From Halobacteriovorax marinus (GTDB taxonomy: Bacteria > Bdellovibrionota > Bacteriovoracia > Bacteriovoracales > Bacteriovoracaceae): a stretch of DNA of 64,000 nucleotides. The stretch spans positions 1-64,000 of the forward strand of contig MAAO01000010.1 in NCBI GenBank assembly GCA_002163155.1, written 5' to 3'. The translations under genes were made by a program, and so were the position numbers. The notes beneath the pieces are model-generated. The model searched no databases. It worked only from the letters and a program-made list of their open reading frames with translations, and was not told where the DNA came from. Positions 6,998-18,402 of this stretch are shown in pieces; within the stretch, counting starts at the first letter, position 1; the number at the start of each line of letters is the position of its first letter.

Positions 6998-8539
6998 CTA
7001 TTCAACGCAATTACCAGACTCATCGGCAATACATTTATTAGAAATTCCAAGCGAAGACTTTATGAGTAAAGATTGAAGTTTACCTGAATCTCCCTGAGCT
7101 TGTTCAAGAAGGTAATGCCAATTTAAATTTCTATACCACAGACTTCCATTCGCAGAATAAAAGGCCTTAAGCTTAGGCAAGTTTAATTGCTTATAATCCA
7201 TGATCGCTCTTTTAGACTTCATTTGAGATTCACAGCTCTCAAACATTATAAATCCAATGGGAGATTCAACTTCAGAATTCTTAGTCAAATCAGTTAAGAC
7301 TTGAATAAGACTAGACGCTGAAGTACCAAATGAATTGAAAACTCCTAGGCTTGAATCATCTACCCCAAGAGCTCCATCAAAAGAGCCTATATGATCAGTA
7401 GCTCCAAGTTGTCCAAACTCAGTTCCAAGACGTATTCCACCGTCTCCTAACCTAATTCCACCATCACCAAGAGATCCCCTTTCATTTCCAAGACGAATTC
7501 CACCATCACCTAATAAATGGTTTCCTACTCCGTAGCTATCTAAGTTATCACAATCATCTTTACAGACAACTGCACCATCTTGATCAACCTGAACATTAAA
7601 CTTTTTCAAGTTCTCTTTCTTTGAAAATGGGCTTACGAGGAATCTATTTCTAGGAGCAACTCCTAGACCTGTACCAGTTTCTAGAATTCTCTCTATACTT
7701 CCATTCATAAGAAGCTCTTCGTGCTTCATGATTTTCTCTTGGCATTGATACTTACTATCTTCCTGCTTCTTAGTGAGACCAGTAAGTAATGAATACGGAG
7801 AACCATGGGATTTCATATGAATAAAGTGAGTAAAGCTGTGAGAAGGAAAAAGATGTTTCCTTGCTTCTTCAGTTAACTCAAAAAGGAAGTCAGGATGTGA
7901 TAATGGAAAATTATAGAATGGTTTTGCAACATCATATCCATACATCGTTTGAAAAAGAATTTCCTCTCCTTCTCTCTCAAAGATCCCTGGAGTTAAGAGC
8001 ATTCCTCTTCTAATCTCTAAAGACTTTGCTAAAAGCGTTGGCAGTTTAGCCACATTGAAGCGACCTTCGCTCAATTCTTCTATGTATTCATAACGATCAC
8101 TTCTTTGACCACAATATATGAAACTGTACGGATTATTGGTAACATTTCCACTACTGTCCTTAGTTTTAATACCAAGGTAGTGAGAGTTTAAGAAAGCAAC
8201 CCAATTCACATGGTCGCCAGAGCGACAGGCCTGTCTTAATTTCTTTATTTCATAATCAATAACACTAATCATATAGGGCTCAACGGGATCCACAGCATAG
8301 TAAATCAATGCCGGCATCTTTGAACTATTCTCAATAGATAGGTTAGTTTTAGGTTCAGGTCTTTGATCGTCTTCTTCAGAGTGAAGCTGACATTTATAGG
8401 GGTCGTTTAGTTGCCCTTGTACATATGGACTTATACAGAAATTCTTATGTTTCTTAGGAGCTTCATCTGGACTACAAATTCCACTACCAGCAAATGAGCT
8501 ATTAATTAGAATAAATATAAGTGAAACTATAAATTTCAT
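6998..8539 (-). CDS. Secreted clan-CD (clostripain/caspase-like) peptidase candidate
   Basis: This 513-residue protein has a signal peptide (cleavage about residue 17). After residue 75 comes a strand-helix-strand layout (ALIYYAVD ... VNWVAFLNS) like the start of C11 peptidases. A hydrophobic strand ending in HMKSHG near residue 245 and another ending in FIMFESC near residue 436 match the catalytic His-Gly and Cys strands of clan CD. Between them lies a ~190-residue insert with three GDGGIRLG repeats (about residues 343-375), much longer than the usual His-Cys spacing. The assignment rests on motifs read by eye. Its ATG overlaps the stop of the upstream sigma-54 activator gene (ATGA), so translation is probably coupled; it is the last gene of the kinase-activator operon. 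Confidence 0.55.
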   Translation of the reverse strand: MKFIVSLIFILINSSFAGSGICSPDEAPKKHKNFCISPYVQGQLNDPYKCQLHSEEDDQRPEPKTNLSIENSSKMPALIYYAVDPVEPYMISVIDYEIKKLRQACRSGDHVNWVAFLNSHYLGIKTKDSSGNVTNNPYSFIYCGQRSDRYEYIEELSEGRFNVAKLPTLLAKSLEIRRGMLLTPGIFEREGEEILFQTMYGYDVAKPFYNFPLSHPDFLFELTEEARKHLFPSHSFTHFIHMKSHGSPYSLLTGLTKKQEDSKYQCQEKIMKHEELLMNGSIERILETGTGLGVAPRNRFLVSPFSKKENLKKFNVQVDQDGAVVCKDDCDNLDSYGVGNHLLGDGGIRLGNERGSLGDGGIRLGDGGIRLGTEFGQLGATDHIGSFDGALGVDDSSLGVFNSFGTSASSLIQVLTDLTKNSEVESPIGFIMFESCESQMKSKRAIMDYKQLNLPKLKAFYSANGSLWYRNLNWHYLLEQAQGDSGKLQSLLIKSSLGISNKCIADESGNCVE

Positions 8540-9939
8540 GACTCTAGTCCTAGAATTCTCATTTTATTAAGAAGAGTTTTCCTATCTATTCCCAAGGTTC
8601 TTGCCATTGCAGCTTTAGAAGACTCTTCATTCAGAGCTTTAGTAAATAATGCCTTTTCGAGTACCTTTGTAGCGTCACTAAGAGTAGGAACTGGTTCGAC
8701 CAATATTTTGACATACCCATCGTTTGAAACTGCACTAGTTTGCGCCGTATCTTCAAGATCATCAAATGGATCCGCAAGGAAGTTGAAACGCTTTATTTCT
8801 TTATCAGTTATCTCACTGCCTCTTGTGGTAATCACGAGGTTCTCGATAACATTTTCCAACTCTCTAACATTACCAGGCCATGTATGCTCTAAGAGCATAT
8901 CCATTCCTCGAGTTGAGATTGCTTTTTGTGCCCTATTCTTTGAATGTTTCTTTACAAAGAAGTTTGCAAGCTCAGGTATATCAGAAACTCTTTCTCTCAA
9001 AGGAGGAATTCTAAGTACAATTTTATTCAATCTATAGAAGAGATCCTTTCTAAAAACCTTACCTTTCACCATTTCTACTAAATCTTCATTAGTTGCAGCA
9101 ATAACTCTAAAGTCTAGTTTCTTTGTGAAGCCAAGTCCAACAGGCTCAATTTCTCTTTCTTGCAAAACTCTTAGAAGTTTCGCTTGTAGATCAAGTGGTA
9201 GTGTCCCTATTTCATCTAAGAAAATATCGCCACCATGAGAAAGTTCAAACTTTCCAATTTGCTTCTTTACTGCACCAGTGAATGAACCTTTCTCGTGTCC
9301 AAACAAGACTGATTCAATTAATTCGTGAGGTATCGCTGAACAATTCAAAGTTATATAAGGTCTATTCTTATCATTTTCTTGTTGGTGCAGACTTCTTGCA
9401 ACCATCTCTTTACCAGTTCCTGATTCTCCGAGGATCAAAGTATCAATGGTAGAGTCCTGCAATTGTGCTATATCTTCCTTTAAATTCATCATGGGTTCGC
9501 TATTACCGACGATAATACTAGTAGAGGCCTTAGCAACTTGCTCTTCGAATCCTCTCGCCTTAGTGACCAATTCTTTTTGCTCTAGGCAACTATGAAAAGC
9601 ATTAGCGATATCATTGTCATCAAATGGCTTTTTTAAGAAATCAACGACACCAAGCCTGAAGGCCTTAATAGCATCTTGAATATAGGTAGTAGAACTAATG
9701 ACAACGATGGGAATAGAAGGATCATATTCTTTGATTTTTTCTACAATATAGTGACCCGTTATTTTTGGTAAATTTAAATCTACAAATACAGCATCCATAG
9801 GATGTTTCTTAATACGCTCCATGAAATCTTCCCCATCTTGAGAGTAATGGAGCTGACATTTTCTTCCAATAGCAATATTGAAAAATTCAAAAACGATATC
9901 ATCATCTTCTATGAGTAGAACATTTGGGGTCTTAGACAT
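8536..9939 (-). CDS. NtrC-family sigma-54-dependent response regulator
   Basis: This 467-residue protein has three domains. The receiver (about 1-120) has the acidic pair near residues 11-13, phosphoacceptor Asp54 (VDLNLP) and the conserved Lys in LKKPF. The AAA+ domain (about 145-370) has Walker A GESGTGKE, Walker B GGDIFLDEIG and the sigma-54 contact loop GSFTGA, a Ser variant of the usual GAFTGA. A Fis-type helix-turn-helix ends the protein (AAMARTLGIDRKTLLNKM). It would hydrolyse ATP to open RpoN promoters when phosphorylated, presumably by the hybrid kinase encoded 117 bp upstream. The closest candidate targets are the sigma-54 promoters of the 98-residue peptide genes, two of which flank this operon. 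Confidence 0.93.
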   Translation of the reverse strand: MSKTPNVLLIEDDDIVFEFFNIAIGRKCQLHYSQDGEDFMERIKKHPMDAVFVDLNLPKITGHYIVEKIKEYDPSIPIVVISSTTYIQDAIKAFRLGVVDFLKKPFDDNDIANAFHSCLEQKELVTKARGFEEQVAKASTSIIVGNSEPMMNLKEDIAQLQDSTIDTLILGESGTGKEMVARSLHQQENDKNRPYITLNCSAIPHELIESVLFGHEKGSFTGAVKKQIGKFELSHGGDIFLDEIGTLPLDLQAKLLRVLQEREIEPVGLGFTKKLDFRVIAATNEDLVEMVKGKVFRKDLFYRLNKIVLRIPPLRERVSDIPELANFFVKKHSKNRAQKAISTRGMDMLLEHTWPGNVRELENVIENLVITTRGSEITDKEIKRFNFLADPFDDLEDTAQTSAVSNDGYVKILVEPVPTLSDATKVLEKALFTKALNEESSKAAMARTLGIDRKTLLNKMRILGLES

Positions 9940-10041: not shown

Positions 10042-10060
10042 ACCTGTAATTACTCACTAT
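10042..10060. repeat. 19-bp element shared with the Kazal gene control region
   Basis: ACCTGTAATTACTCACTAT here matches 18 of 19 bases of the element at 34125-34143, which lies just upstream of a consensus sigma-54 promoter. It contains the palindrome GTAATTAC and overlaps the end of the kinase gene, upstream of the activator gene. No other clear signal was seen in the 117-bp gap. Confidence 0.35.
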
Positions 10061-12882
10061 GGTAAATTTTCTTCAATAAAAGTAAAGAGAGTCTCTTCTT
10101 CAAGAGGAAGTTTCATAAAACTTACTTTGGAAAGATTCTCAAAAGTTCCTTTTAATTTAGAGTCAATATGATTAGACACTAGCGCCACAGGAAGGTCCGG
10201 ATAATCTTTCTTTAAGTTTAATAATAGATCTACCCCTAAAATTACTCCACCAGAATCTTCCATATGATTGTCTGAAACTATGAAGTCTGGTTCGGAGATA
10301 GTAACTTCTTTCAAAAGATCTTCACCCTTATCAAAAGTCCTAAGATTTATAAGATTTTGTGGATTAGATTTATTCCAATTTTCTATTAATGATTCAAAAT
10401 AGAAACGCATAATCTCTGAATCATCACAATAATAGAGTTTCTTCATATCAACTAAGTTATCATTCTCTGGTAAATCATTTTCAAGTAAACTTCTAAGCAA
10501 CAACTCAAACTTAAGAGGTTTTTCTAAGAAGGTGTATTCAAAAGAAAGATTTTTTAGAATTTCGTCAGATCTAGAGTGATTAGAAAGAATGAAAACCTTA
10601 GAATCAAGCTCAATATCATTTAAGAAGTCTAATCCAGACTTCTCTTCTGATAAATCGATATCTGAAATGATCACATCATAGGAGTTAGAGCTATAGGCAC
10701 TTATAGCGTCATTATAGCTTTTTACAATGTTTAAATTCAAAGTTGTTTCTAAGTTCAACTCTTGAACTTTGTCCTTTAGAAAATTTGAGTAAACCTCTTG
10801 ATCTTCTAAGACAAGAATACTCATACTAGCAAGAGAACTTGTATTAACGACGACTTCCTCATCAGCGACTAAGAAGTTTGGTAATTCTTCTATTTTATAA
10901 GATTCAAGTTCACTTGCCGCTAAAAGAGTTATTTCGAAACAAACCTCTTGAGTAGAGATAAGGTTATAGGCCTTAATATTACCTTTATGCCTTGTCACAA
11001 TTTTTTTAACACTAGCAAGGCCTAGACCTGTTCCTCTTGATTTTCCTGATGTGAAAAAAGGAGTGAAGAGACTATCAATCTTATCACTAGGAATTTGGGG
11101 ACCATTATTATTAATGATCTTTATTCTTACATACTTTTGATCATCAATAACAATGTCTTCACTAGTAAATCTAATTCGACCATGAGTAGAGCCTGCCATT
11201 ACAAGGATGGCCTCAAGAGCATTTGAGATTATATTTGAAAAGACTCTTTGGATTTCCCAGATATTAGCTAGAATCATGTACTTAGAATTTAAATTGTATT
11301 CAAGCGCGACTTTACTTTGATCAAATTGGTCATTATTTCTAAGAGAAACTAGAGTTTGCAGTAAAACGTCATGTAGTTGATGAGTCTCAAGACTTCCCTC
11401 TCCTTCACGTGTAAAATCTAATATCTGATCAACCATCGTATTCACTTGGATAACAGAACTTTCAACTTCCCTCTTTGCTTTCTTCAATAAAACCTTATCT
11501 TGAGCAAATTTATGAAAACTATTTAAAATACTACTCATTTGAGAGAATGGCTTTCTTATATCATGGGCAAGATGAGCAGCTGTCTGACCAATCGCTGCAT
11601 CTCTTGCTTTTTCTTCTAACTCCACAATTTGCCTAACTATCGTCCTCTCATCCTTGGCCATACCGAGAACTGCTAAAGTAGCAATGTAAAGACAAATAAT
11701 AAGATCCAAGAGATTTAGATAGAATAAATTTCCTGCAAGAGATAAAAAAATATGAAGAATTAAGAAGTATATTAAGAAGACTTTATGTCCACCATTGATT
11801 CTCTTGTCCTGAAAACCTTGAAGTAAAGGTATTAAGACGCACAAGAAATAGAAAATATTAATTGAATCAAATATCAACTTTATAGTCACAAAAGTAACTT
11901 CATAATAGAAAAGAATTGAAACGATTGTTCCAGCAATTAGAGAAAAGATAGAAACAAAACGGTAAACATAAAAATATTTTTTAATTCTAAATGAATCTAA
12001 GAGATAGAAGAGAATAGAAGAACTTGCGATAAGTCTTGCCATTATTATAAACCACAACCTAAACGGAATGGATAACACTTCTCCAAGTATTTCACTTTTC
12101 ATCATTTGAATAACTAACATCGAAAAAGAAAAAACTAATACGTTCACATAGTTTTGTCTCTTATTAGTAAATACATAAATCATGGAGAATAAAACAAAGA
12201 GAGTACCAATAGTCAGAGTCCAAAGCAGATGATTCGAAACGCTTACTCTTTCGCTGTGTTTTGTTAGAGAAGCAATTTCAGTATTTGGACCTACAAGCAT
12301 CTTCATAAAACTAAAAATACCATTATCACCTGGTTTAACTATACCCTCGACACCAATGAACACTTCTTCGTTACTGATATATTCTTTAGGAATTGAGATA
12401 TAGACAAATCCGGCCTTTGAACTTCTTCCATCTAAACTTTGAACAAGAACATCATTTATATATATTTTAAATTTACTTAAACTAATACTTAATGGCGAGA
12501 AGACGATAGATTCTTTGGAGTCTAAAAGTTCCTTAGGAATTTTTAACCTCATTCTATAATAGAGTTTATCATCTTTTGAAAACTGAACTGATCGATCAGA
12601 TCGAAAATTGAACTTAGGCAAAGTAACACTCTTCCAGGCATTGTCTAAATGATCACTTAACAACCAACATGGAGTAATTCCACACATTGGAGAAACACCG
12701 AAGTGAATTTTTGTACTAAGCAGGTTTTTATCGACAACGTAAACTAAAGGGTGCTTTGTTACTCTTGAATCAGTGGTAGAGACAAAGTCAATCCCCTTAA
12801 TAAAAGCACCTAAACTTAACAGGCTCAAGAGAGAAACTAAGATTATTGCGGTTTTATTCAAAACATATCCTTTTATTTGCAT
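10057..12882 (-). CDS. Hybrid histidine kinase with 7TM sensor and two receiver domains
   Basis: I start this at the ATG at 12882 (941 residues); the frame extends to a TTG at 12942, but that would overlap the divergent gene. The order is one N-terminal membrane helix, an extracytoplasmic beta-rich sensor (about 30-210), a seven-helix membrane block (about 215-400) of the 7TMR-DISM kind, HisKA with phosphoacceptor His about residue 440 (AHDIRKPF), HATPase with GTGLGLASV, and two receivers (about 690-800 and 814-941). It probably phosphorylates the NtrC-type regulator encoded next in the operon. The H-box resembles that of the 82-residue divergent protein (SHDIKKPI), suggesting heterodimers. 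Confidence 0.88.
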   Translation of the reverse strand: MQIKGYVLNKTAIILVSLLSLLSLGAFIKGIDFVSTTDSRVTKHPLVYVVDKNLLSTKIHFGVSPMCGITPCWLLSDHLDNAWKSVTLPKFNFRSDRSVQFSKDDKLYYRMRLKIPKELLDSKESIVFSPLSISLSKFKIYINDVLVQSLDGRSSKAGFVYISIPKEYISNEEVFIGVEGIVKPGDNGIFSFMKMLVGPNTEIASLTKHSERVSVSNHLLWTLTIGTLFVLFSMIYVFTNKRQNYVNVLVFSFSMLVIQMMKSEILGEVLSIPFRLWFIIMARLIASSSILFYLLDSFRIKKYFYVYRFVSIFSLIAGTIVSILFYYEVTFVTIKLIFDSINIFYFLCVLIPLLQGFQDKRINGGHKVFLIYFLILHIFLSLAGNLFYLNLLDLIICLYIATLAVLGMAKDERTIVRQIVELEEKARDAAIGQTAAHLAHDIRKPFSQMSSILNSFHKFAQDKVLLKKAKREVESSVIQVNTMVDQILDFTREGEGSLETHQLHDVLLQTLVSLRNNDQFDQSKVALEYNLNSKYMILANIWEIQRVFSNIISNALEAILVMAGSTHGRIRFTSEDIVIDDQKYVRIKIINNNGPQIPSDKIDSLFTPFFTSGKSRGTGLGLASVKKIVTRHKGNIKAYNLISTQEVCFEITLLAASELESYKIEELPNFLVADEEVVVNTSSLASMSILVLEDQEVYSNFLKDKVQELNLETTLNLNIVKSYNDAISAYSSNSYDVIISDIDLSEEKSGLDFLNDIELDSKVFILSNHSRSDEILKNLSFEYTFLEKPLKFELLLRSLLENDLPENDNLVDMKKLYYCDDSEIMRFYFESLIENWNKSNPQNLINLRTFDKGEDLLKEVTISEPDFIVSDNHMEDSGGVILGVDLLLNLKKDYPDLPVALVSNHIDSKLKGTFENLSKVSFMKLPLEEETLFTFIEENLP

Positions 12883-12904
12883 ATTAAAAAAAGAGCGATA
12901 CAAT
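12877..12904 (+). promoter_or_regulatory. Promoter for the DHp-only gene, overlapping the kinase start codon
   Basis: TTGCAT (12877-12882) and TACAAT (12899-12904) are spaced by 16 bp. The -35 hexamer is the complement of the kinase's first two codons (ATG CAA). The predicted start near 12911 leaves room for the GAGGG ribosome site at 12924. Confidence 0.45.
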
Positions 12905-12911
12905 TCTTCAA

Positions 12912-12939
12912 CATATAATGTGCGAGGGAAAAAATGCAA
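12912..12939 (-). promoter_or_regulatory. Promoter for the hybrid kinase operon, overlapping the DHp gene start codon
   Basis: On the minus strand TTGCAT (12939-12934) and TATATG (12917-12912) are spaced by 16 bp. The -35 is the complement of the first two codons of the divergent gene. The two promoters are therefore interlocked. Confidence 0.4.
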
Positions 12940-13182
12940 CAAAGTGAAGAACTTGATAAGATCTTATCTCTAATATCCCATGATATAAAGAAACCAATTA
13001 ATAATTTGTCGATGTTTTTGAAAATCTTGCCTATGAAAAAAGATGATGAAGCCTTTGTCAGTAAATCTCTTACTTCAATTGAAAATGACGCGAACTCTGT
13101 GGTTGAATATATTGATAAAATTAGACATTTTTTAAATAAGGAAGGAAGACTTCCGACAGACTCTGAAGAACTATTGAAGTAG
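12934..13182 (+). CDS. Stand-alone histidine-kinase dimerisation (DHp/HisKA-like) protein
   Basis: This 82-residue protein consists almost entirely of one HisKA-like helical hairpin. Helix 1 carries His16 in LISHDIKKPINNLSMFL, an H-box-like motif; a second helix follows (SLTSIENDANSVVEYIDKI); then a short tail. There is no ATPase domain and no membrane segment. GAGGG sits five bases before the ATG. It is transcribed divergently from the hybrid kinase with only 51 bp between start codons. A DHp domain without an ATPase could form mixed dimers with the kinase, accept phosphate or act as an inhibitor. It is not a kinase fragment left by decay as far as I can see, because start, ribosome site and terminator are all intact. 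Confidence 0.7.
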   Translation: MQQSEELDKILSLISHDIKKPINNLSMFLKILPMKKDDEAFVSKSLTSIENDANSVVEYIDKIRHFLNKEGRLPTDSEELLK

Positions 13183-13185
13183 TAA

Positions 13186-13212
13186 AAAGGGGCGACTAAG
13201 GGCCACCCCTTT
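13186..13212 (+). terminator. Terminator after the DHp gene
   Basis: AAAGGGG (13186-13192) pairs with CCCCTTT (13206-13212). It lies between convergent genes and the arms make it usable in both directions. Confidence 0.55.
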
Positions 13213-13272: not shown

Positions 13273-13569
13273 TTATAGTCTGTAACAAGAGAACACTCTA
13301 CAGCTGTATGGTTCGTAAGAGTAATTTCTACAGAAGTTAACTGCCATTCTAGCGGCCTGTGCACGTGATCTGGCTTGTCCAACTCCACCAGCACCATCCA
13401 TTGCTTGCGCTTCACATTCCCATCCGCCGTAGAACTTATTACCAGTCTTTAACATCTGCTCTAGTGTTTCAACATTCTCCATTGAAATTTCGATTTTCTT
13501 ACCTTCAATTTGTGCACCTAAAGTTGAAAAAGTTGCTGCAAGTGCGATTAGTGTCATTAGTTTTTTCAT
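13273..13569 (-). CDS. Small secreted cysteine-containing peptide, copy 2 of 4
   Basis: The 98-residue product differs from copy 1 at a single position (Ala for Thr at residue 11) and keeps all four cysteines (52, 80, 90, 95), the signal peptide and the acidic segment. The leader, ribosome site (CGGAG), sigma-54 promoter and upstream palindrome also match copy 1 closely. With copy 1 it brackets the kinase-activator operon, so one duplication may have moved the unit to the other side in inverted orientation. Confidence 0.8.
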   Translation of the reverse strand: MKKLMTLIALAATFSTLGAQIEGKKIEISMENVETLEQMLKTGNKFYGGWECEAQAMDGAGGVGQARSRAQAARMAVNFCRNYSYEPYSCRVFSCYRL

Positions 13570-15560: not shown

Positions 15561-18029
15561 ATGAGTTTCAAATTAAAGAAATTAGTGTCTATTATTCTGT
15601 TTTTTATTTCCACTTCTTTATATGCACAAACTCAGACAAGCCCAGGCAGTGCCTTTCAGAATTTTTGTGAGAACATTGATACTTTTCACCCAATGCACAG
15701 GCTAACCTTAAGCACAATTCTTCAAGTAACAAAGGAACAAGACTGTAAAAAATCATCAAAAATACTTGCGAACCTAGAGAATTTTGCATCCATTGGTTTT
15801 GTAACGACCTTGCTTCCTTTTTCAGATCTAACTCAACTAAAAGGTTTGTACCTTTATCAAACCCTTGCGAGTGATACTGAAGAGTTAAAAAACCTTCGCT
15901 CTTTAAAATTCTTAGCTCTCGCAAATTATTTTAAATATGAAAAAGTTCAAAGTGACATATCGGTTTTAAAAAACCTTACAAACCTTGAAGTACTAAACCT
16001 AACAGGATTTCCAATTACTGATTACAAAGTAATCGGATTATTAAAAAATATTAAATCTATAAAATTAGATGGGCATAATGATGTTACAGACTTAGATTTT
16101 CTAAGTAACCTAGATTCATTAGATGAGTTCTCCCTACAGTGCACAGACCTTTTCAAAGATATTGTCTCAGCAAGAGATCTTACAAGTCCTCACCATATAG
16201 TAGGTACACCTCCCCCCCCATGCTTAAATACTTCATTAAAAGACATAAGCGCTCTTTCAAAATTTAAGGGATTAAAATTATTAAACTTAAATAGTCAATT
16301 CATACAGGACATCTCTTTCATCAAGGAACTTAAAAGCTTACAAGTCTTAAAGCTAGACCTTGTTCCAATTCTTGATTTTTCTCCATTAGAAAACTTACCG
16401 CTATTATTTCTCAGTTTATCTAGAATTTCTCAAAATAAAAATCCCACGTTACCCTATAGAAAAAAACTAGGCTTATATAAAAAGAGAAACTATTCTCCAG
16501 TCTATAAACTTAAGTCACTTGAGAACTTGAACGTGGCGGGAAGTCATCCTAAAGAACTAATTGGCATTAAGAAACTCACATCTCTAAATGCTCTAGATAT
16601 ATCTTCAGACATACTTCCAAAGAATTTGATTTTTTTAAAGGGATTATCGAATCTAACTTATTTAGTAATAAATTCTACAACTAAAAATGGGCATGATCTT
16701 TTAGATGTGAATATACGAAACAGAAGTGATTTAGAAGATATTAGTATTTTAAAAGAATTTAAGTCCTTAAGAGTCCTTTGGCTTCGTGGTCATAAGATTA
16801 AAAATATTAGTTCATTAACAGAACTTAAAGAATTAGCTGATCTCAATCTTTCCCATAATTTCATTTCAAATATAGATCCCTTGAGTGAACTTACAAAATT
16901 AAGGTCACTAGCAATAGACAGGCTTTATAATTCAGTCAATGAAAGTGATGAGCTACAGCTATCAAAACCCATAACAGATATAAATGCGCTTAGTAGACTA
17001 ACAAGACTAAATGTACTAAGCCTTGAGAACCAAGGAATTAAAACAATAATTCCATTAATGTCACTTGCCGGTCTTCGCGTGCTAAAACTCTCTGGAAATA
17101 ATAAAATTTCAAACATAGAAGCAGTGAGGAATATGGCATTTCTCAATACTTTCTCATTTTCATGTATGAATGTAACACCTCACCTATCTGACCCATTTAC
17201 TCAAAAAAAAATTACTCCATGTGATAATCCTATCCTTGAAGACATTTCACCTTTAAAAAATCTAGCATGGCTCTCTTACATAGATTTGAAATACAACAAT
17301 ATAAAAGACCTCTCTCACTTAAGGAATTTAAGCCAGATTCGTTTATTGAAGATTAATGGAAATAAAATTACAAATATTAAACCATTAAGTGATTTATTTC
17401 ATATATCCGGACTGGATATTAGCGATAACTTAATTGAAGATCTTAGACCAATTGCAAATCACATGGCCTTGTCGAGCCTGAACGCAGCAAGGAATCCAGT
17501 AAGATTATGGCCAAATTTAAAAGATCAAGCCTATCTTATGTCATTAGACCTTAGCTCAACTGGCTTAAAGGATCTTAGTATTATTTCAAAAAATGGTAAA
17601 CTTGATACATTAAATCTATATGACAATAACATTTCAGACTTATCTCCACTTAACAGACTTCAATATCTTAGTTACATCGACATAACTGATAACAATATAG
17701 AAAGCTTAGATCCGTTGAATAACTCGAAGCAACTTGAAATTATCAAAGCTCGTAATAATAATATTTCAGATATATCTTCTTTAAGATTACCATCTCTTAT
17801 AACCTTATTCTTGAATGGAAATTCTATTTCTGATATTTCGAACCTAAGAAGTATGCAAAGATTACTTACTCTTGGAATTGATGATAATTTAGTAAGTGAT
17901 TTAACACCTCTTAGATTTATGACTAGCCTAATGAAATTCACAGGAGAGGGCAATCCGATAAAAATAGAAAGCTGCCCATTGAATTCAAGTGTTGAGGTAT
18001 TAAATATTTTTTGCGCAAGTTACTTTTAA
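15561..18029 (+). CDS. Secreted SDS22/internalin-type leucine-rich repeat protein
   Basis: This 822-residue protein has a signal peptide (cleavage after YA, about residue 22) and a cysteine-bearing cap (PGSAFQNFCENI ... EQDCKK). The rest is mostly ~22-residue repeats of the form LxxLxxLxLxxNxIxDISPL, typical of internalin and SDS22 repeats, which build curved protein-binding surfaces. Two cysteine pairs interrupt the series (around residues 195-220 and 535-555). There is no membrane anchor or sorting signal, so it is secreted or periplasmic. It is a paralogue of the gene at 18650 over its whole length. The ATG lacks a strong ribosome site (GGGGCG upstream), and no better start exists before the signal peptide. 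Confidence 0.85.
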   Translation: MSFKLKKLVSIILFFISTSLYAQTQTSPGSAFQNFCENIDTFHPMHRLTLSTILQVTKEQDCKKSSKILANLENFASIGFVTTLLPFSDLTQLKGLYLYQTLASDTEELKNLRSLKFLALANYFKYEKVQSDISVLKNLTNLEVLNLTGFPITDYKVIGLLKNIKSIKLDGHNDVTDLDFLSNLDSLDEFSLQCTDLFKDIVSARDLTSPHHIVGTPPPPCLNTSLKDISALSKFKGLKLLNLNSQFIQDISFIKELKSLQVLKLDLVPILDFSPLENLPLLFLSLSRISQNKNPTLPYRKKLGLYKKRNYSPVYKLKSLENLNVAGSHPKELIGIKKLTSLNALDISSDILPKNLIFLKGLSNLTYLVINSTTKNGHDLLDVNIRNRSDLEDISILKEFKSLRVLWLRGHKIKNISSLTELKELADLNLSHNFISNIDPLSELTKLRSLAIDRLYNSVNESDELQLSKPITDINALSRLTRLNVLSLENQGIKTIIPLMSLAGLRVLKLSGNNKISNIEAVRNMAFLNTFSFSCMNVTPHLSDPFTQKKITPCDNPILEDISPLKNLAWLSYIDLKYNNIKDLSHLRNLSQIRLLKINGNKITNIKPLSDLFHISGLDISDNLIEDLRPIANHMALSSLNAARNPVRLWPNLKDQAYLMSLDLSSTGLKDLSIISKNGKLDTLNLYDNNISDLSPLNRLQYLSYIDITDNNIESLDPLNNSKQLEIIKARNNNISDISSLRLPSLITLFLNGNSISDISNLRSMQRLLTLGIDDNLVSDLTPLRFMTSLMKFTGEGNPIKIESCPLNSSVEVLNIFCASYF

Positions 18030-18105: not shown

Positions 18106-18402
18106 CTACAGTCTATAACAAGAAAATACTCTACAGCTATATGGTTCGTAAGAGTAATCTCTACAGAAGTTAACTGCCATTCTAGCGGCCTGAGCACGTG
18201 ATCTAGCTTGTCCTACACCACCTGAACCATCAATGGCCTGGGCTTCACATTCCCAACCACCATAGAACTTGTTACCAGTCTTTAACATTTGTTCTAGTGT
18301 TTCAACATTCTCCATTGAAATCTCGATTTTCTTACCTTCTATTTGTGCACCGAAAGTTGAAAAAGTTGCTGCAAGTGCGATTAGTGTCATTAGTTTTTTC
18401 AT
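18106..18402 (-). CDS. Small secreted cysteine-containing peptide, copy 3 of 4
   Basis: This 98-residue copy has the same four cysteines, with substitutions Phe for Leu at 17, Ile for Met at 57, Ser for Ala at 60 and Asp for Asn at 82. The sigma-54 core promoter is retained, but the DNA further upstream is the most diverged of the four copies and lacks a clean palindrome. It may therefore respond differently to the activator. It lies between the two leucine-rich genes on the opposite strand. Confidence 0.8.
   Translation of the reverse strand: MKKLMTLIALAATFSTFGAQIEGKKIEISMENVETLEQMLKTGNKFYGGWECEAQAIDGSGGVGQARSRAQAARMAVNFCRDYSYEPYSCRVFSCYRL

Follow-up and report, generated by a model that had tools for sequence, protein, structure and literature searches.

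The window, the whole 64,000-nucleotide stretch of Halobacteriovorax marinus DNA analyzed here, carries at 12934..13182 (+) a gene for an 82-aa stand-alone DHp (HisKA) hairpin protein, recognized from its ORF, Pfam, AlphaFold2, codon usage, and a homologue at locus L021 in another genus. Judged by its sequence and setting, there is about an even chance that this gene encodes a minimal Spo0B/ChpT-like phosphotransferase—one in which the ATPase-like half is absent—that would pass phosphate from the receiver of a hybrid kinase to an NtrC-type regulator. The hairpin also leads to a broader, apparently undescribed set of small hairpins coupled to NtrC-type genes. We lean slightly toward the view that the whole taxonomic family uses a class of 60–85 residue DHp-like hairpins, mostly translationally coupled to NtrC-type regulators, that replace HPt proteins or act as dedicated regulators and are mostly too divergent for Pfam. 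No description of a DHp-only or HisKA-only protein family was found in the literature searched, which lay mostly outside subscription journals.

The coordinates, frame, and 82-aa product of the preliminary description agree with the sequence, as do His16 (codon 12979-12981) within the hairpin H-box SHDIKKPINNLS (SHDIKKP) and the H-box of the adjacent kinase, AHDIRKPFSQMS (AHDIRKP). Its identification of a DHp domain standing without an ATPase or sensor is likewise borne out by a HisKA match, a predicted fold, and a His kept in a second genus. Residues 8-66 match Pfam HisKA (PF00512) at E 5.3e-7, with 30.0 bits against a curated cut-off of 26.9, and AlphaFold2 models the monomer as the helical hairpin expected of such a domain rather than as another fold (two helices, 2-35 and 39-69; pLDDT 82). 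No HATPase, sensor, or Hpt domain is matched in the 82 residues by Pfam at E ≤ 1; the product thus has neither the HATPase_c domain that marks a histidine kinase nor the Hpt domain (PF01627) that marks an HPt protein. Among 77 genomic HisKA matches it is the sole small member, no other match lying in an open frame of <200 aa. Codon usage is consistent with a translated gene: the plus frame scores 0.215 per codon (mean of the genes, 0.192), a value exceeded by 0.3% of shadow-frame pieces, and the frame that is open in antisense reaches -0.04.

A ribosome-binding site belonging to the gene, also part of the earlier account, is present as GAGGG (12924..12928, +), with the ATG 5 nt further on. Upstream, a promoter-like site (TTTGCA-17-TACAAT; 12876..12904, +), identified by consensus match only (9/12), falls in the gap common to the hairpin gene and the divergent kinase gene. 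The terminator that the preliminary description assigned to the gene is better placed elsewhere. The inverted repeat at about 13186-13212 (-) folds strongly when read on the minus strand (-24 kcal/mol, z -3.5), where a T tract follows, and weakly on the plus strand (-15 kcal/mol, z -0.8). With both its strength and its T tract limited to the minus strand, the repeat is mainly the terminator of the convergent gene at 13273-13569, and by its folding energy it would be a weak terminator of the hairpin gene at best. Rfam gave no match around the hairpin locus.

The neighboring genes outline a signaling module. Divergent from the hairpin gene, a hybrid histidine kinase is encoded at 10057..12867 (-; ORF, Pfam), with an N-terminal membrane sensor, DHp, HATPase, two receiver domains, and no HPt; the sensor region is membrane-spanning and 7TM-like by eye, and the start codon is uncertain, as the ORF may begin at 12942. 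The probable output of the system is an NtrC-type response regulator with the Pfam domain order REC, sigma-54 AAA, and Fis HTH (8536..9939, -), whose gene lies ~3 kb from the hairpin. Next to it, a secreted 513-aa protein without a Pfam match (6998..8539, -) is kept in the module, accompanying the kinase and NtrC genes in two further genera; it bears an HGS...ESCE motif, which we take to recall clan CD (cysteine) peptidases. The same protein contains a repetitive GDGGIRLG insert. On the other side of the hairpin lie a small secreted Cys-containing protein of 98 aa (13273..13569, -), an ORF with a homologue in the G091 module, and a secreted leucine-rich-repeat (LRR) protein (15561..18029, +) found by comparison of modules to be kept among them. 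A second copy of the Cys-containing protein is present at 18106-18402 (-), with 94/98 residues the same by eye, and the two copies flank the LRR gene region. Pfam finds no Hpt match on the contig of the hairpin gene and 14 elsewhere in the genome.

Within the genus, the hairpin gene is absent from the four congeners (0/4), and the adjacent kinase was not found in them at E ≤ 1e-60. The search for DHp-only genes beside hybrid kinases suggested in the preliminary description was productive: Among 129 family genomes, one other genus (G059) carries a stand-alone homologue (E 3.4e-12) of similar size that shares the phospho-acceptor His and H-box. Its locus, L021, is a rearranged copy of the five-gene module (hairpin, kinase, NtrC, protease-like, and LRR). 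Relative to the window, the NtrC regulator has 50% identity, the kinase has 31% identity and one receiver rather than two, the protease-like protein matches at E 7e-72, and the LRR protein is also there. In this genus the divergent neighbor of the hairpin gene is the NtrC gene, not the kinase gene, which lies 1.4 kb away.

A profile built from these two hairpins returned no third member in 369 phylum genomes. Searching with a kinase profile revealed the module in a third genus as well (G091, L048); there, the 3' end of the NtrC gene is overlapped by a 65-aa ORF with the H-box FHDLKN that the hairpin profile had missed. In both G022 and G028, H-box ORFs likewise overlap NtrC, in the vicinity of related hybrid kinases. 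Counted by locus, a hairpin accompanies 5/5 loci that have the kinase family with its NtrC and 0/4 kinase loci without such an NtrC (L049, L050, L051, and L054); kinase relatives in G309 and G037, from another family of the phylum, are cut by contig ends and were left out of this count. Phage and plasmid collections and IMG/VR contained no true hairpin relative, and a GTDB contig scan for the hairpin gave one kinase fragment and nothing else. One further candidate, a stand-alone HisKA-like protein of 100 aa with the motif GHELRQP (L023 8485-8787, G028), has no kinase or NtrC-type regulator directly beside it and was put aside as a relative for its different context. At L053 and L052 (G022 and G028), the kinase, NtrC, and hairpin genes lie among transporters and solute-binding proteins, together with genes resembling YcaO or radical SAM peptide-modification enzymes.

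We describe the association with NtrC across the family from a sample of about 80 further NtrC-type genes, drawn by NtrC similarity alone, whose downstream sequence was inspected. A coupled ORF was defined as 45-110 aa long and starting no more than about 50 nt from the NtrC-type stop codon, and an H-box was scored as H[DENQH][hydrophobic] within the first 50 residues. Coupled ORFs stand behind 46/87 NtrC genes with enough downstream sequence, and 43/46 of them carry an H-box vs. 34/496 control ORFs (p = 1e-38, a figure that ignores kinship among loci). About 20 genera contribute coupled hairpins, of which a few are weak members, and the most frequent sequence type is lIHDINSxLSAL...NPELVDKILPL...KL..L...W..LK. 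The window hairpin, at its distance from the NtrC gene, falls outside this coupled group. All five genomes of its genus have a coupled hairpin (L082, L084-L086, and L088). The one in the window genome, at L084 2362-2559 (G000:C6), gives that genome a second H-box hairpin that stands alone, and it is coupled to a different NtrC gene; it is unseen by Pfam, is predicted to adopt the hairpin fold (pLDDT 95), and is kept in all five genus genomes as a conserved NtrC-hairpin pair with no kinase beside it. No NtrC protein with an H-box fused at its C-terminus was found.

Profile comparisons suggest that the coupled group is likely akin to DHp domains. The DHps of the kinase subfamily are matched by the window-pair profile with a probability of 97.3% and by a profile of 26 coupled hairpins with 94.5%. 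Window pair and coupled group align with each other in hhalign at 89.6% (E 1.9e-6), His on His, and reversed or column-shuffled profile controls reach at most 2.5%. Because the 26 hairpins were chosen partly for their H-box and the E-values are those of single comparisons, we treat these values as support, not proof. Among the 26, HisKA is the commonest Pfam match (7/26, weak, best 5.5e-4); one hairpin matches SPOB_a, and one weakly matches two ChpT models. Foldseek and VIA-align did not separate the DHp hairpin from hundreds of unrelated helical pairs.

Conservation at the residue level makes the NtrC regulator the best candidate for the hairpin's partner. Residues 16-35, comprising the H-box and the REC-facing helix, share 80% identity between the two hairpins, and the remaining residues about 15%; the equivalent segment of the kinase DHps shows 45%. 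Across the same two loci, NtrC alpha1 is 64% identical vs. 36% for the rest of REC. REC alpha1 is the docking surface for the DHp face that follows the His, and the joint conservation of the REC-facing helix and of NtrC alpha1 therefore points to this pairing. At H+1 the hairpin has an acidic residue (Asp), and the H+1 acidic residue of HisKA proteins is required for kinase activity. The H+4 position of HisKA proteins carries phosphatase activity as Thr/Asn (PMC3510030), and 20/25 sampled genomic HisKA domains have Thr/Asn there, with Lys in this kinase only. Lys also occupies H+4 in the window hairpin, the G059 homologue, and every aligned member of the linked kinase subfamily. With this Lys, little phosphatase activity is expected of the window hairpin, and the shared residue suggests that the hairpin may stem from the linked kinase subfamily.

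In the relay that we infer—dimer, phosphotransfer, step order, and target promoters alike—the DHp hairpin alone would pair as a dimer into a four-helix bundle. The hybrid kinase would autophosphorylate at its own DHp, phosphate would move to its receiver domain(s) and from there to hairpin His16, and His16 would hand it to the Asp of the NtrC-type regulator. The regulator would then drive sigma-54 promoters, probably those of the module's secreted protease-like and LRR genes. The third step of known relays is taken by an HPt protein or by a pseudo-kinase such as ChpT or Spo0B (PMC9981736, PMC5898713). Here the kinase has receiver domains and the locus has no HPt, so the hairpin probably provides the missing relay step. 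A bare DHp is plausible in such a role and has precedent, given that split EnvZ HisKA and HATPase halves keep activity and that HATPase is missing from 3.66% of HisKA proteins in SMART (PMC3591291). The separate phosphotransfer module put forward in the preliminary description is therefore the function that fits the comparison best, through the lack of an HPt in locus or contig, the constant company of NtrC across modules, and the alpha1 co-conservation. Against a relay stand the divergent orientation of the window gene and its kinase, the coupling of most other hairpins to NtrC, the L084 pair with no adjoining kinase, and the single clear sequence homologue (G059) in 129 family and 369 phylum genomes.

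Alternatively, the hairpin may be a dedicated NtrC partner rather than a relay transferase, binding REC as a phosphatase, sink, or holder and limiting or resetting its activity; we regard this as a tentative possibility. In its favor, hairpins are constantly coupled to NtrC genes, at L084 with no kinase close by, and such a partner would likewise account for the co-conservation with NtrC alpha1. The commonest coupled type, HDINS, moreover has a polar residue at H+4, the phosphatase position (PMC3510030). The window hairpin and its G059 homologue, however, have Lys at H+4 in place of a Thr/Asn phosphatase residue, and their His is kept although such a phosphatase would not strictly require it.

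We think it unlikely that the hairpin pairs as a heterodimer with the neighboring hybrid kinase through the DHp of the latter, either titrating the kinase or being phosphorylated in trans by its ATPase domain. The two genes are divergently arranged and share the locally unusual H-box HDxxKP, whose Lys at H+4 is the sole one in the 25 sampled domains; the profile probability with this kinase subfamily is 97%, and EnvZ halves do function in trans (PMC3591291). Yet the hairpin resembles the adjacent DHp (28% identity) no more than it does the genome's other DHps, and its RR-facing residues are unlike those of the kinase. The hairpin of G059 adjoins NtrC with the kinase 1.4 kb away, and most hairpin relatives sit on NtrC genes. 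Titration, the other function raised in the preliminary description, is thus the weaker of the two and gains nothing from the comparison. A decaying histidine-kinase fragment without function, already disfavored, seems very improbable: Restriction of the hairpin to the window species within its genus would fit decay, but the frame is intact, codon usage is normal, the ribosome site is there, and the homologue in another genus is alike in size and context, with 80% identity around the His.

The proposed phosphotransferase has partial counterparts among known systems. Spo0B (Bacillus) and ChpT (Caulobacter) likewise use the active His of a DHp hairpin to link a receiver with a response regulator, but they retain a degenerate ATPase-like domain, whereas the hairpins are 60-85 residues long, have no such domain, and are NtrC-associated; the window product, a hairpin only, therefore lies outside the Spo0B/ChpT type as defined by DHp plus that domain. 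HPt proteins hold the same place of His intermediate in a phosphorelay as is proposed for the hairpin; they are monomeric four-helix bundles, whereas the HisKA-type hairpin has no Pfam Hpt match and is expected to need dimerization. Split histidine kinases (CheA3/CheA4; HisKA without HATPase) also carry the His part on its own polypeptide, but the partner kinase of the hairpin is a complete one, having both DHp and ATPase, and the locus has no ATPase-only partner. Closest in size and domain is the isolated EnvZ dimerization domain (PDB 1joy, 5b1n), whose structures match the hairpin sequence weakly (E 0.33-0.36); it is an experimental fragment, whereas the hairpin is a natural gene product.

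If the phosphotransferase reading is true, a bare DHp hairpin, as small as a His-phosphotransfer protein can be, would be a normal gene product systematically paired with sigma-54 regulators, and it would supply a missing link for the hybrid kinases without HPt and the orphan NtrC regulators of this family. Because most of the coupled hairpins are short and unseen by domain libraries, they have probably been overlooked or annotated as no more than hypothetical proteins. The same downstream sequences also contain a second class of NtrC-type genes, followed ~20-70 nt downstream by a small HTH-like protein (by eye) with the motif FRIFNGAEMK and no hairpin (L064, L070-L072, L079, L081, and others).
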